From Niallia sp. FSL W8-0635 (GTDB lineage Bacteria > Bacillota > Bacilli > Bacillales > Cytobacillaceae), in assembly GCF_038007965.1 (NCBI RefSeq), contig NZ_JBBOYD010000001.1, positions 412,501 through 476,500 of the forward strand: DNA of 64,000 nucleotides, in the 5' to 3' direction. The notes beneath the pieces are model-generated. The model worked only from the letters and a program-made list of their open reading frames with translations, searched no databases and was not told where the DNA came from. Of the stretch, positions 25,455 to 63,625 are shown piece by piece. A program made the position numbers and the translations under genes. The stretch's first letter is position 1, and each line of letters begins with the position of its first letter.

Positions 25455-25506
25455 AGTATAGTAAAATGTGTTCGTGATATTAGTCCTATTTTTTCTAAAA
25501 TTGAAA

Positions 25507-25584
25507 AAGGCAAACTTATCGAAAGGTAAGGACGCAAAGCTACGAGTCTAAAATCCTCTAGGATAATGATAGTCGGGTTGCCAG
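25507..25584 (+). ncRNA. cyclic-di-GMP-I (GEMM) riboswitch
   Basis: The GEMM-I core is clear: GGCAAAC, a hairpin CTTAT-CGAAAG-GTAAG with GAAA tetraloop, the invariant GGACGCAAAGC, a second hairpin, and TAGTCGGGTTGCC closing P1 against the 5' GGCAA. It is followed by a terminator (25608-25645), so control is at transcription termination. Whether ligand turns the operon on or off is not decided here. Confidence 0.93.
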
Positions 25585-25607
25585 AAATATCCCCTAATGA
25601 TTATTTG

Positions 25608-25699: not shown

Positions 25700-26068
25700 A
25701 TGATTGTAGTAGACAAAAAGAAGTATAAAATGGCGATTAATGAAAGCTCGAAAGAAATTCATGTTCAGGTCCATGGATTGATGAGAGAGGAAGACGTAGA
25801 GGAATATATGGTAGATTTGCAAGAGACGATTAATAAAGTATCAAGACGAGATTATACCTTTGTTGTGGATGCTACTCACCAAACACCAGTCCCATCAAAA
25901 GTTGTGCCACAATTGGAACAAACGATGCAATTTTACTCTAGCTTAGGATTTAAGGATGTCCTTGTTGTGAAACCTTCTTCTAAAATTGCCCAAGTTCAAA
26001 TTAGAAATGCCCTAGAAAGAATTGAGTTCACAGGTAAAATTATTGATCGTGTATCTCATTCTATGTAA
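25700..26068 (+). CDS. small STAS-like protein
   Basis: A 122-aa soluble protein (MIVVDKKKYKMAINESSKEI start). Its beta-strand/helix pattern, with YTFVVDATHQTPVP and a central VLVVKP strand, resembles the STAS/SpoIIAA-like fold, but no phospho-acceptor serine is obvious. It is the first gene behind a c-di-GMP-I riboswitch and is followed by an acetyltransferase-like gene and a chemoreceptor signalling gene in the same direction. The exact family is uncertain. Confidence 0.6.
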   Translation: MIVVDKKKYKMAINESSKEIHVQVHGLMREEDVEEYMVDLQETINKVSRRDYTFVVDATHQTPVPSKVVPQLEQTMQFYSSLGFKDVLVVKPSSKIAQVQIRNALERIEFTGKIIDRVSHSM

Positions 26069-26128: not shown

Positions 26129-26839
26129 GTGCAACAAGTGCAAACATTATATACATGTGAAATTCTATCAAAAGAACAAACGGCTTTGATTGAAAAGGCA
26201 GCTGACTGTCTTGCAAGCTCATTTATAGGATTGCATGTAGCGGGGAAATTAGTTCAAGAGCCGATGGTAGGTCTATTAAATATAGGTTATGAAGATTTTT
26301 ATCAGTTTACGAAAGAGTATATCGAATCTACTGTGGAGCAAGGGTATTGTGCAGTCGCTTTAGATAGTAATCAACAGATTGTTGGTGTACTAGCTGGAGA
26401 TATAAATGCGCCAGAGATTATTGGAGAAGATGTGTTTGAAGGTTCTTTTTCTGATATGAATGTTATTCTACATGTTTTAGAAGATGTAGATAAGCGTTTC
26501 CTAGCAGATTATAAAGAACGAAATGGAAGTGAGCTAAAGGATGGAGAAATATTGCATTTATTCATGTTAGGTGTAACTGCCGAACAGGAACGTCATGATG
26601 TTATTAAGCAATTAGGAAGCACACTAATAACGAAAGCCTCTTCACAAGGATTGAAGGCTGTTTTAGCAGAAGCGACAAATCCAAAATCTATACGTGTGAT
26701 GGAGAAATATTTCGAGATGGAAAAATATAAAGATGTAGAAGGAAATTATATTGTTCATAAATATCAAGAGAATAGTAGATTAAAAGATATTCCTACAACG
26801 ATTGCTGACGGCACTTATATAATTATTAAAGAGCTTTAA
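26129..26839 (+). CDS. GNAT-like acyltransferase, c-di-GMP operon
   Basis: A 236-aa protein with GNAT-like features: YCAVALDSNQQIVGVLAGDI strand pair, LHLFMLGVTAEQERHDV, and KAVLAEATNPKSIRVMEKYF, which resembles the last strand-helix of the fold. The acetyl-CoA loop is not canonical (no RGxGxG). The start is GTG, nine bases after GGGAGG. It lies between the STAS-like and chemoreceptor genes; a role in modifying a signalling molecule or receptor is speculation. Confidence 0.6.
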   Translation: MQQVQTLYTCEILSKEQTALIEKAADCLASSFIGLHVAGKLVQEPMVGLLNIGYEDFYQFTKEYIESTVEQGYCAVALDSNQQIVGVLAGDINAPEIIGEDVFEGSFSDMNVILHVLEDVDKRFLADYKERNGSELKDGEILHLFMLGVTAEQERHDVIKQLGSTLITKASSQGLKAVLAEATNPKSIRVMEKYFEMEKYKDVEGNYIVHKYQENSRLKDIPTTIADGTYIIIKEL

Positions 26840-26886: not shown

Positions 26887-28080
26887 ATGGAGGCTATATT
26901 ATTAGCTATTATTGTTATCTTATTGGTGACAACAGTGTATTTTGCTTACCGATATTTTTCGCTGAAACATCATCCATCTATTAACAAAGAAATAATAAAC
27001 GGGATGAAAGAAATAGCTGCAGGAAATAGAAGTGGCAAAGTAGATGGGACAAGCTCTTATCATATTACATTTAATGAACTAATTGCGTTTTTAGATCAAG
27101 TAAGGGAAAAGTTTTTTTCTTTTTCAAAAAATGTCCATACAAAAGGAGAAAATCTAGCTGGAATTGGTGAAAATGCCATGGAGAAAGCTGATATTGTCCG
27201 AGCAGCAATTGATGAGGTAGGTAGAGGATTACAAAAACAATTAGTAGCAACAGAGGAAAGCGCCCTATCGATGGAAGAAATGGCTCAGGCTATTGAAGAT
27301 TTATCAATAAGATCTAATCAAATTTCCGAACAGTCTAATACGACTTTAGAATTGACACAAGAAGGAAATGTGAAGTTAAAGGATTCATTAGAAAAAATGG
27401 AGCAGTTTAACCAAACAATCAATACAACCTTTCATGCCATTAATAAGCTTGGAGAAAAGTCTCAAGAAATTGGTACAATTGTAAAAGTAATTACCGGAAT
27501 ATCTGAGCAAATTAACTTATTGGCATTGAATGCAGCGATAGAAGCAGCTCGTGCGGGGGAACATGGTAAAGGTTTTGCAGTCGTAGCAGATGAGGTGCGA
27601 AAACTGGCTGAACAGTCTCGTCAATCATCTTCTGAAGTATCAAATATTGTAAGAAATATTCAAGAGGAAACAGGGATAGTTGTGAATTCAATGCAGCAAG
27701 GTACAGAAGAGTTTAAAGACACGAACACGAATATTTTAGAAGTTGGTACGATGTTCGAACAAATTCTCTCTACTACAAAGGTCATTGCTGAAAATAATGA
27801 AAATTCTTCTGCGAGCACAGAAGAATTATCCTCGGCTTCTCAACAAATCATGACAACGATTGTTCAGATAGCGGCTATTTCGCGAGAATCTGTTGAAATG
27901 TTTGAGGAATTAATCGGGATTAGTGATGGAGAGCTACAAACGATTCAAAAACTAGTTCAGGAAGCGGAGAATCTTTTGGAATTGAAAAATGATGTAGACA
28001 AACTACTTTCGACGTGGAATCAGGGTGTTGAAACAGAAGTGGGTCAACAAATTGAAGGTAAGAGTAGTGTAGCCAGTTAA
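26887..28080 (+). CDS. methyl-accepting chemotaxis signalling protein, single TM
   Basis: A 397-aa protein with one N-terminal TM (about 3-23) and then a long coiled-coil MCP signalling domain. The hairpin tip reads [38 protein letters not shown] in pieces, the CheA/CheW contact region. There is no extracellular sensor domain and no clear HAMP, so it either senses at the membrane or cytoplasm or takes input from a partner, perhaps the two proteins encoded upstream. Its mRNA carries the c-di-GMP riboswitch at 25507. Confidence 0.88.
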
Positions 28081-28090
28081 GTTGGAAACT

Positions 28091-28127
28091 GCTTCTCATA
28101 GGTGATTAAACTTGTGAGAAGCTTTCA
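28091..28127 (+). terminator. terminator of the signalling operon
   Basis: GCTTCTCA pairs with TGAGAAGC (28115-28122), followed by TTCATTT. Confidence 0.65.
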
Positions 28128-28180
28128 TTTGTAGATTAATAGAAATAATTTATTTTAATAAAGTATTTTGTAATATTCCT

Positions 28181-28262
28181 TCGAAAATAGCAAACTCATT
28201 GAAAGATGAGGACGCAAAGCTGCGGGCCTAAAGAAGTACTTCTATGGTAGCCGGGTTTCCGA
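28181..28262 (+). ncRNA. second cyclic-di-GMP-I (GEMM) riboswitch
   Basis: The same core as at 25507: GCAAAC, hairpin CTCATT-GAAA-GATGAG, the invariant GGACGCAAAGC, GCGGGCCTAAA, a third hairpin and GGTAGCCGGGTTTCCGA. A short perfect terminator hairpin follows at 28285. It controls the transporter-decarboxylase pair. No strong -35/-10 pair was identified in the 60 bases upstream. Confidence 0.93.
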
Positions 28263-28284
28263 AAAGGTTGGATAGTTACTAATC

Positions 28285-28304
28285 AAGCAATATATTGCTT
28301 TTTT
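28285..28304 (+). terminator. terminator of the second c-di-GMP riboswitch
   Basis: AAGCAA-TATA-TTGCTT hairpin followed by TTTT, 22 bases after the aptamer and 84 bases before the transporter start. Confidence 0.7.
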
Positions 28305-28387
28305 ACGTCCTCCTTGGTGTGGACTTTTTTTATTTGGATTTGTCTATCGTAGCAGAAGGATAGTATTCAAAAGGAAAGGGAGTAGAA

Positions 28388-29755
28388 ATGGCACAACAAG
28401 AGCAATGGAGATCAAAAATAGGATTTGTTTTAGCGGCAGCTGGATCAGCGATAGGATTAGGAGCTATATGGAAATTCCCTTATGTTGCTGGAACAGGTGG
28501 CGGCGGAGCCTTTCTCTTATTATTTTTAGTTTTTACATTAGTATTGGGAATGCCCTTATTATTAGGAGAATTTATGATTGGGAGAATGGGACAAAGTAAT
28601 CCGGTTCAAACATATGGCAAGCTAGCATTAAATCCAAAGTGGAACTTTATCGGGAAACTCGGTGTTTTTACAAGCTTTTTACTGCTATCATTTTATAGCG
28701 TTGTTGGTGGCTGGATTATTTTATACATTGTGAAGCTTTTGAGCGGTGGATTAGCTGGATTGACTCAGGATCAATATGGAGAGCTTTTTGGCGACATTAT
28801 TTCTAACCCATATCCGACTATTGCGGCACAGCTTGTATTTATGCTTGTCACAATCCTTGTCGTTGCTCAAGGGATTCAAAAAGGGATTGAGTTAGCAAGT
28901 AAAGTCATGATGCCAGCGTTATTGCTTTTGTTTTTAATATTAGTGATTCGTTCTTTAAGCTTGGATGGAGCAATGGAGGGTGTGAAATTTTTACTTGTAC
29001 CAGATTTTTCAAAGCTGACATCTGAGAGTATCCTATTTGCCCTTGGGCAGGCATTTTTCACATTATCTTTAGGTGTTTCGGTTATGCTTACATATGCTTC
29101 TTATTTACCTAAAACACAAAATCTACCTCAATCAGCTATTTCTATTATTATCTTAAATATTGTTATAGCTTTATTAGCAGGATTAGCTATTTTTCCAGGT
29201 GTTTTCTCCTTTGGCATGGAACCGAATGCAGGGCCGGTTTTAATATTCTCGGTTTTACCTGCAGTGTTTGCCCATATGCCTTTTGGGATGCTTTTCTTCT
29301 TGGCATTTTTACTATTATTCTTATTTGCCGCTTTCACTTCAGCATTCTCTATGATTGAAATTATAGTATCAGCAGTTACGAAAAATGATGCAAGTAAACG
29401 GAAGAAAAGTACATGGATAATTGGGATGCTGATTTTTATTGTTGGTGTTCCATCCTGTCTATCTTATGGTGTACTTGCAGATGTCCATCTTTTTAATAAG
29501 ACTATTTTTGATTTGATGGATTACACGGTTAGTAATATTTTAATGCCATTAGGTGCCTTATTAATCGCGATTTTTGTATCGCGAAAAATTCCAAGAGAAG
29601 ATTTATTTGCGGAATTAAAGCAAGGATCGAATGTAAGATACACATTCTTTTCCATTTGTTATTTTCTGTTGAAGTACATCGTTCCCATTGCGATTATTGT
29701 CGTTTTCTTAGATGCGGCAGGATTATCAGATTGGATTATAGCTTTGTTTAAATAA
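28388..29755 (+). CDS. SNF family sodium-dependent amino-acid transporter
   Basis: A 455-aa neurotransmitter:sodium symporter (SNF, LeuT/TnaT/MhsT-like). The N-terminal [21 protein letters not shown] contains the unwound TM1 site for Na+ and substrate, followed by [15 protein letters not shown] (TM2); about eleven to twelve hydrophobic segments follow. Bacterial members carry hydrophobic or aromatic amino acids. It is co-transcribed with the decarboxylase 38 bases downstream and sits under the c-di-GMP riboswitch. Confidence 0.9.
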
Positions 29756-29792
29756 AAGCTACTTCTAGCAAGAACATCACGGAGGTTAAATA

Positions 29793-31430
29793 ATGAAGGA
29801 AATACAACAATTGTTCCCAAGCATGGACGGGAACAACTTTCAAAGAGAGGAATTATTGTCCTACTTTAAAACCATTTTAACGAAAATAGATGAATTAAAG
29901 GATCCTAACAAACTAACGCTAGGAGAAATGCCAGAATACACAGAGGACTACTATAATCGTGTTATTGAAAAGGCAGATGTTCCGAAAACGGGTGTATCCA
30001 TGGAGGAAGTGATGCAGAAGCTTCTAAAATTAGTGGAAGGACATCGATATGTAAATCGAAACTATGTAGCCAATGCGGCGCCCCTTCCGAATATTGCTAG
30101 TATCATTGGGAATTTAGTGATGGTGCTTGTCAATGGGAACAACCTTTGGGATGTAGAAGGTCCGGCGGCCGCTACAGCGGAGGTAGAAATAACAAGTATG
30201 CTGTCCAAGCTAATTGGCTATGATGAAAACCTAAGTGCTGGATATACAACTTGGGGAGGACAAGGAGCGGTGTTTAATTCTTTACGCCTTGCAATTGCCC
30301 GTTATGCACCTTCCTCTAATCAAAAGGGGATTCCGAAAAATCTTTATTGCTTCTGTTCAGAGTTATCCCACTACAGCTTGTATAAATCTGTAGAAGCATC
30401 GGGGCTTGGGGTAGAAAACATGATTCGTGTGAAGGTGAATCAGGATCATTCTATGAATCTCCAAGATTTAAAAGAAAAAATGGAGCAGGTAATTTCAAAA
30501 GGCGGTGTTCCACTTTATATACTTGCAACAATGGGAACAACTGATACATTTGGGATTGATGATATAGAGGCCATGAAGCATCTAGCGGAAGAGCTAGAGC
30601 GCAAGCATGGTCTAAGCCCCATCTATATTCATGCCGACTCAGCAATGGGAGGAATGTACACCTTCTTTAATGCGTACGACTTTGATAATAACCCACTTCA
30701 ATTGGAAGACAATGTTAAGGTAGTATTGAAATCCTATCAGCAGAAGTTTAAGCAGATCAAGCTTGCAGATAGTATGGTCTTTGATTTTCATAAGCTAGGT
30801 CAAACTCCGTATATTACGAGTTTATTTTTAATTAAAAATAGAGAGAATCTGAAGTATGTTGATTTAGACGAAGAGGAAACTCCGTATGTTGGGAATCGTG
30901 GTTATGGAAGTTATCATACAGGCTACACATTAGAATGTTCGCGAATGGGAAGTGCTCTTTCCATTTATGCATCTTTATTAGCATTTGGGATAGAAGGGTA
31001 TCAAAAGCTTCTAGCCAACTATCTTCGCGTTAATATGAAATTTAGAGAGACGTTAACAAGGGAAATTTCAAATGTGGCAATTACGAATGAAGTTTCGCCG
31101 ATTACAACATTCCGCTTTTATCCTGAAACTTCTAAATGGAAGGATGAATCAGGTGGACTTTTAACAGTGGAAGAAATAAATGAAATTAATCAATTTAATG
31201 ACGAGTTTGCCGAAATAATTGGTGCTGAACGAGATACCGTCTTCTTTGGAAATACAAAAAAACAGCGTCTTGTAGAAGCAGCCGATTCCAATAAGCGAGT
31301 ATCTATATATGCACATAAGTTTTTCACAATCTCTCCTTATTCAACGATGGAAGAGGTAGATCGTTATGTTGAATTTTTAAAAGAGCATCTCGTCTTTTTC
31401 CAGAAAACAAAAACAGTGGTTTTTCATTAA
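29793..31430 (+). CDS. PLP-dependent group II amino-acid decarboxylase
   Basis: A 545-aa aminotransferase-fold decarboxylase. The PLP lysine is in DFHKLGQTPY, the PLP-ring Asp in YIHADSAMGG, and the cofactor-holding TTWGGQGAVFNSL segment is present. The lengthy form and sequence are nearest to the pyridoxal-dependent tyrosine/glutamate decarboxylase group, but I cannot assign the substrate. Paired with an SNF transporter it likely takes up an aromatic or other amino acid and releases the amine. GGAGG precedes the ATG. Confidence 0.85.
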   Translation: MKEIQQLFPSMDGNNFQREELLSYFKTILTKIDELKDPNKLTLGEMPEYTEDYYNRVIEKADVPKTGVSMEEVMQKLLKLVEGHRYVNRNYVANAAPLPNIASIIGNLVMVLVNGNNLWDVEGPAAATAEVEITSMLSKLIGYDENLSAGYTTWGGQGAVFNSLRLAIARYAPSSNQKGIPKNLYCFCSELSHYSLYKSVEASGLGVENMIRVKVNQDHSMNLQDLKEKMEQVISKGGVPLYILATMGTTDTFGIDDIEAMKHLAEELERKHGLSPIYIHADSAMGGMYTFFNAYDFDNNPLQLEDNVKVVLKSYQQKFKQIKLADSMVFDFHKLGQTPYITSLFLIKNRENLKYVDLDEEETPYVGNRGYGSYHTGYTLECSRMGSALSIYASLLAFGIEGYQKLLANYLRVNMKFRETLTREISNVAITNEVSPITTFRFYPETSKWKDESGGLLTVEEINEINQFNDEFAEIIGAERDTVFFGNTKKQRLVEAADSNKRVSIYAHKFFTISPYSTMEEVDRYVEFLKEHLVFFQKTKTVVFH

Positions 31431-31474: not shown

Positions 31475-31506
31475 AAATCCTCCTGCCATAGCAGGGGGAT
31501 TTTTTT
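31475..31506 (+). terminator. terminator of the transporter-decarboxylase operon
   Basis: AAATCCTCCTGC pairs with GCAGGGGGATTT with one wobble and is followed by T6. The remaining 31507-31770 is AT-rich with no clear signal beyond room for a promoter. Confidence 0.88.
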
Positions 31507-63496: not shown

Positions 63497-63516
63497 ATTC
63501 TCATCTATATATAATT

Positions 63517-63587
63517 CCTTCATATATCCTCGATGATATGGTTCGAGAGTCTCTACCGGGTCGCCTTAAATGATCTGACTATGAAGG
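63517..63587 (+). ncRNA. guanine-type purine riboswitch
   Basis: The aptamer is complete: P1 CCTTCAT/ATGAAGG, ATATGG after P2, GTCTCTACCGGG, CCTTAAA and GACTATG. The C in GACTATG is the purine-contacting base of guanine-sensing members (T in adenine-sensing ones). It should lower guaA when guanine or hypoxanthine is plentiful. The 3' strand of P1 also pairs with CTGCCTTC (63640-63647) as antiterminator. Confidence 0.93.
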
Positions 63588-63625
63588 CAGATAAGTCTTT
63601 CCAGTTTAGCTTCTTAATGGAATCC

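Follow-up and report, generated by a model that had tools for sequence, protein, structure and literature searches.

The stretch of DNA analysed here, called the window, comprises 64,000 nucleotides of Niallia sp. FSL W8-0635 (contig NZ_JBBOYD010000001.1, positions 412,501 to 476,500) from a genome of 5.14 Mb. It contains a class-I riboswitch aptamer of the cyclic dimeric guanosine monophosphate (c-di-GMP) type, placed before genes for an SNF-family symporter and a predicted pyridoxal 5'-phosphate (PLP)-dependent decarboxylase. This arrangement recurs, with its aptamer, in Robertmurraya, Heyndrickxia, Halalkalibacter, Oceanobacillus, Ornithinibacillus and Niallia-like genomes. The leader, the two genes, each an open reading frame (ORF), and the end of the unit are given below in window positions.

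28179..28263, + strand: c-di-GMP-I (GEMM-I) aptamer (RF01051, 81.5 bits, Rfam cmscan)
28285..28300, + strand: T1, a weak hairpin AAGCAA/TTGCTT followed by a T run (read from the sequence)
28307..28324, + strand: T2, a GTCC/GGAC hairpin followed by T7 (kept in 9 SNF-type leaders)
28264..28315, + strand: candidate antiterminator, 28264-28273 pairing with 28307-28315 (prediction, hypothesis only)
28388..29755, + strand: SNF-family Na+-dependent symporter, 455 aa (ORF, PF00209)
29793..31430, + strand: predicted group II PLP-dependent decarboxylase, 545 aa (ORF, PF00282)
31475..31502, + strand: intrinsic terminator 3' of the decarboxylase gene (terminator scan)

The thresholds of the terminator scan exclude T1 and T2, neither of which it lists. 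The unit lies right behind another operon of the c-di-GMP type, as a preliminary description of this DNA had stated. That operon encodes a chemoreceptor of the methyl-accepting chemotaxis protein (MCP) type together with two smaller proteins, here called x122 and x236.

25499..25585, + strand: upstream c-di-GMP-I riboswitch with G at the G20 equivalent, leading x122-x236-MCP (RF01051, 89.6 bits)
25700..26068, + strand: x122, a conserved 122-aa protein (ORF)
26129..26839, + strand: x236, a GNAT-fold protein (fold comparison)
26887..28080, + strand: MCP-type chemoreceptor (PF00015, E 1.4e-40)
28091..28122, + strand: terminator hairpin and T-tract at the MCP gene end (terminator scan)

The last hairpin sets the SNF-decarboxylase unit apart from the upstream MCP gene, and a sigma-70 scan listed no promoter between that gene and 28179.

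The aptamer and its A at the G20 position

The match at 28179-28263 exceeds the RF01051 gathering score of 35 by a wide margin (E 1.8e-14), and alignments place all of P1, P2 with its GAAA loop, the conserved GACGCAAA core and, at C28259, the equivalent of C92 of the Vc2 aptamer. A chance match was rejected on the strength of the score and of the covariation described below. The preliminary description had thus recognised a real class-I aptamer before a transporter-decarboxylase unit, although it set the aptamer start two bases off.

In the Rfam alignment, A28189 replaces the equivalent of Vc2 G20 (model position 11), a difference that the preliminary description had not mentioned. The genome has 10 class-I aptamer matches, and position 11 is G in nine of them and A only at 28189. 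G11 of the Cd1 and Bc1 riboswitches is described as Vc2 G20 and C81 as C92, and Vc2 G20 is expected to bind the ligand's second guanine (PMC9262584, PMC11218506). G is usual at this position and is presented as a selectivity factor rather than a hard filter (PMC9262584). All nine SNF-type leaders have A there (the window, L052, L054, L056, L058, L065, L066, L073 and L074, of which L056 lacks SNF itself), compared with 2 of 35 other plus-strand leaders (the L056 x122 leader and L102); a minus-strand match in L112 and the window's own x122 leader, both with G, were left out of the 35. Leaders of x122 carry G in 19 of 20 loci. A strict pattern run over 61 genomes found 11 A-type and 295 G-type aptamers (the latter a sum over both strands), and 5 of the 11 are SNF-type leaders. 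Fisher values computed for these counts overstate independence, since the leaders have a common descent and the two sets overlap; the safe statement is only that A has been kept in the SNF-leader lineage through several genera, with G kept in the neighbouring x122 leader. Judged from these alignments, A20 is a conserved variant of the class-I aptamer in that lineage. In a same-genus genome (L150:1490-3011), an A-type class-I aptamer leads a ketoacyl-ACP-synthase-III-like gene, which is followed by an x122 look-alike recognised by eye.

Pairing in the leader

Across the nine aligned SNF-type leaders, P1, P2, T1 and T2 pair in 95.4% of cells (P3 not counted). Five pairs have changed on both sides: one in P1, two in P2 and two of the six in T1. 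None of 500 shuffles reached this level of pairing or five two-sided changes, and slid structures paired in as few as 36-62% of cells; further pair types were no better than shuffles (287/500). T2 pairs in 100% of cells, with one-sided changes only.

The candidate antiterminator overlaps the outer P1 pairs. It pairs in 95.6% of cells. In 5 of the 9 leaders no other segment pairs better with the T2 arm; shuffle fractions range between 0.008 and 0.144, and the window duplex is beaten by 7.2% of shuffles (0.072). A scan for duplexes that allowed long-range pairs yielded no consistent alternative structure. We treat this element as a weak candidate. Its overlap with P1 would make the leader an OFF switch, as with Cd1, which is interpreted as OFF and in which an antiterminator is likewise described as controlling transcription, in competition with the aptamer's 3' side (PMC9262584). 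The two differ in the genes that they lead and in that the SNF-leader antiterminator is only predicted. By this analogy, the OFF direction is suggested, with the balance tilted slightly towards it.

The genes, their recurrence and their history

The decarboxylase matches Pyridoxal_deC (PF00282) with E 7.7e-28 and 97.7 bits (cut-off 27). K334, H193 and D282, which we take to be the catalytic lysine, the PLP-stacking histidine and the aspartate of this family, are invariant in 11 sequences, and the nearest named relatives are from Bacillus sp. 522_BSPC (98%) and Niallia sp. (97%). Genome G001 has a further copy of the decarboxylase gene (L050:5873-9228), which a stop interrupts, and the MCP frame that follows is in two pieces.

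The symporter matches PF00209 (E 7.3e-55, 187.1 bits, cut-off 27) and NF037979 (146 bits, cut-off 50). Its nearest solved relative is PDB 4us3 (E 2.1e-101), which shares the SNF fold and which we take to be MhsT, a transporter of hydrophobic amino acids; by analogy, the window symporter probably carries hydrophobic amino acids. As in 4us3, the motif in its first transmembrane helix has Gly, not the Asp that presumably marks monoamine transporters. The symporter differs from 4us3 in its linkage to a decarboxylase and in having Ala26 (window 28463-28465) opposite an Asn of the aligned chain, a residue that presumably helps to bind a sodium ion.

In the upstream module, x236 has an arylalkylamine N-acyltransferase fold. 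It is nearest to arylalkylamine and polyamine N-acetyltransferases, among them the insect arylalkylamine/dopamine N-acetyltransferases, and to the C-terminal domain of Ebony; Pfam gave only a sub-threshold GNAT match (E up to 1). It differs from these insect proteins in being bacterial and in standing in a chemoreceptor operon, and it has R-[HRK]-[DE] where the Gly motif is expected, both in 10 orthologs and against aligned relatives. Acylation of an amine by x236 is a possibility suggested by its fold. Protein x122 matched no Pfam family over the cut-off (E up to 1) and nothing significant in a PDB profile search, and it looks STAS-like by eye only. The window MCP has a single hydrophobic segment, at its N-terminus, and is hence not expected to carry a sensor domain outside the cell.

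Recurrence was assessed by an alignment scan of a genome-contig collection, which found 125 decarboxylase relatives; the best 80 of 125 were used. MCP genes in these loci were sought by tblastn with two MCP queries, and aptamers with a model built from 22 sequences, some from the same loci, which gave 44 matches. An MCP gene lies within 4 kb of the decarboxylase in 69 of 80 loci (same strand upstream in 22, same strand downstream in 36, convergent in 5 and divergent in 5). The window genome has 23 MCP matches over the cut-off, from which roughly 5% of random genes would be estimated to have an MCP within that distance. The preliminary description had set this unit against the motility-type targets usual for GEMM-I riboswitches; with a nearby chemoreceptor gene at so many loci, it sits close to that theme instead. 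In 16 loci with a downstream MCP, its frame was examined from the first possible start: in 11 it opens 8-47 nt ahead of the decarboxylase stop, and in the remaining 5 it opens 0-31 nt past that stop.

The other partners are less constant. The x122-x236 module occurs in 29 of 80 loci and SNF directly upstream of the decarboxylase in 18, with only fragments in L055. A class-I aptamer leads x122 in 20 loci, SNF in 7 and the decarboxylase itself in 13, so that one or more of these genes has such a leader in 37 of 80. Import had been regarded as a core function; SNF as the system core was rejected, since 18 of the 80 loci have it upstream, and in other loci it has disappeared or survives as a relic. 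On this comparison of loci, the transporter is a dispensable part.

A tree of 81 decarboxylases has two deep groups. All members of the 32-row group have a downstream MCP and 11 have an aptamer leader, and the 49-row group has the module, SNF, both or neither. Changes on the tree number 10 for SNF, 3 for the module, 4 for the downstream MCP and 7 for the aptamer leader. The window belongs to a group of 27 rows with the A-type leader and SNF at its base (L073/L074, L065/L066). Many lines of this group show decay of SNF: L056 retains the aptamer but has lost SNF, and L055 has the fragments mentioned above. Between MCP and decarboxylase in L068:5731-6003 and L069:5721-6003, the aptamer 3' half and T2 are kept (by eye), and the aptamer 5' half and SNF are gone. 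L065, L066 and L073 have no module within 13.6 kb and have a different MCP behind the decarboxylase.

A possible amine and chemoreceptor cassette

We give a probability of about 0.5 to the reading that these loci represent a Bacillales amine-and-chemoreceptor cassette under class-I riboswitches, in which amine output would be tied to chemotaxis via c-di-GMP. A class-I riboswitch with a natural A20 would control read-through of the tandem terminator-like hairpins, and read-through would allow the symporter and the PLP amino acid decarboxylase to be made. An amino acid, either cellular or imported where SNF is present, would then be decarboxylated to an amine, which might be N-acylated and could be modified or sensed through x236. 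The linked chemoreceptor would read the amine or its precursor, the second c-di-GMP-I riboswitch would govern the adjoining x236, x122 and chemoreceptor, and a change in c-di-GMP would co-ordinate amine production with chemotaxis. The amine put forward in the preliminary description gains support from x236 as a conserved neighbour with an amine-acyltransferase fold; the preliminary interpretation as a whole is partly supported.

If this reading is true, the second messenger that governs the choice to swim or settle would have a direct link to an enzyme that makes an amine and, judging by gene order in many genera, also to a chemoreceptor, giving a route from c-di-GMP to a diffusible compound. 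The G20 and A20 aptamers paired in one genome would be a natural experiment on how one nucleotide tunes affinity or ligand choice. The parts are of known kinds; their combination and the A20 lineage look new, and no report of a riboswitch-decarboxylase-chemoreceptor cassette was found in the open literature searched. A more elaborate version is possible, if doubtful: an unreported small-molecule signalling cassette in which the decarboxylase and the Ebony/AANAT-like protein would make or read the amine, a dedicated chemoreceptor would respond, and the G20 (receptor module) and A20 (importer-decarboxylase) riboswitches would stage the two halves at different c-di-GMP levels.

Several observations weigh against the cassette. 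In 11 of the 80 loci no MCP lies within reach, and in 43 the search found no class-I aptamer before x122, SNF or the decarboxylase; this set of 43 includes 12 of 14 Lysinibacillus records and seven SNF-decarboxylase loci (L088-L093, L100). A hairpin with a T tract lies between MCP and decarboxylase in 7 of 8 gaps read by eye, and such persisting hairpins count against a simple operon story; in 19 MCP-decarboxylase gaps, a stricter terminator script listed the MCP-end hairpin in L037 alone, a locus of the genus Niallia with no aptamer between the two genes. In the leader, the antiterminator shows no covariation in the nine sequences, a plain fold of the whole leader is no better than shuffles (z 0.18), and the window aptamer alone has U28258, where the other eight SNF-type leaders have G or A. 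Among the proteins, the decarboxylase falls below every NCBIfam cut-off (PanP, DABA-DC, TyrDC and GAD; the best score is 94.5 against 606.1 bits), and x236 is without the acetyl-CoA glycine P-loop, which Ebony also lacks in the alignment.

One rival explanation is that the leader is degenerate or locked, with its ligand bound poorly, if at all, inside the cell and the tandem hairpins simply attenuating the genes. Bc1, which lies before mcpE in the Bacillus cereus group, is a close precedent: it is described as a class-I riboswitch that has, like the SNF leader, a long platform, a weak T1 and a stronger T2, and a link to a chemoreceptor gene, and it was reported to give no c-di-GMP response in vivo in B. 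thuringiensis (PMC11218506). This is a warning for the SNF leader too. Bc1 has G11 and leads an MCP gene, whereas the SNF leader has A and leads a symporter and a decarboxylase. The A at the G20 position, the lone U28258 and the half-deleted aptamers of L068 and L069 fit such decay, but leaders of at least six genera conserve the aptamer and P1, with compensatory changes, which is not expected of a dead aptamer. We consider a locked leader unlikely.

Ordinary amino acid catabolism or pH homeostasis might also account for the gene pair. In that case the chemoreceptor would respond to the amino acid as a nutrient, and there would be no amine signal. A decarboxylase with an uptake system is a known acid-stress layout, and the SNF-decarboxylase pairs of L088-L093 and L100 have neither MCP nor aptamer. 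Against this, the ORF list of the unit contains no amino acid/amine antiporter gene, x236 with its amine-acyltransferase fold is a conserved neighbour, and aptamer leaders occur in several gene arrangements. Such a purely metabolic role seems improbable to us.

The preliminary description had named c-di-GMP as the ligand, which is not supported as stated because A stands at the selectivity nucleotide in all nine SNF-type leaders. It is still the likeliest ligand, perhaps with weaker or relaxed binding from A20, because the genome has 15 GGDEF matches, no match to a SMODS nucleotidyltransferase, and no Hypr serine in the 13 of 15 GGDEF domains legible by pattern (12 Asp, 1 Asn at what we take to be its place in the motif). 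The SNF-type aptamers resemble the GEMM-Ib riboswitches of Geobacter in their A, if, as we assume, GEMM-Ib has A at the Vc2 G20 position. A switch of ligand to 3',3'-cyclic GMP-AMP (cGAMP) or another dinucleotide, as in GEMM-Ib, would suit the presence of A in 9/9 SNF-type leaders against 2/35 others and the reported binding of cGAMP by a class-I aptamer with G20A (PMC6274999, PMC7288161, PMC11352751), but it is the least probable of these rivals. The host belongs to the Bacillales, has other genes behind the aptamer and no recognised cGAMP synthase, unlike Geobacter (PMC6456294, PMC8835794), and none of the 13 legible GGDEF domains shows the serine-for-aspartate exchange described for cGAMP-making Hypr enzymes (PMC6456294). 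Changing G11 of Cd1 to A or C was also reported to leave c-di-GMP binding without large effect (PMC9262584).

Other riboswitches occur in the genome. Two more class-I aptamers (L006:1501-1758, G000:C1:3817480; L007:1502-1758, G000:C1:640806) directly precede genes for 46-48 aa SinI-like anti-repressors, which match PF08671 over the cut-off in L007 and just under it in L006; a putative c-di-GMP riboswitch before sinI has been described in Bacillus methanolicus (PMC4342826). Further class-I aptamers stand before a GGDEF protein (L004, G000:C1:745231), a WxL surface protein (L009, G000:C1:960319) and a dCache/HAMP chemoreceptor-like protein (L005, G000:C1:726468), and the GGC variant RF03167 is the best-scoring model for those of L007 and L009. 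The window also contains a purine riboswitch aptamer at 63500-63601 (Rfam, 82.6 bits).

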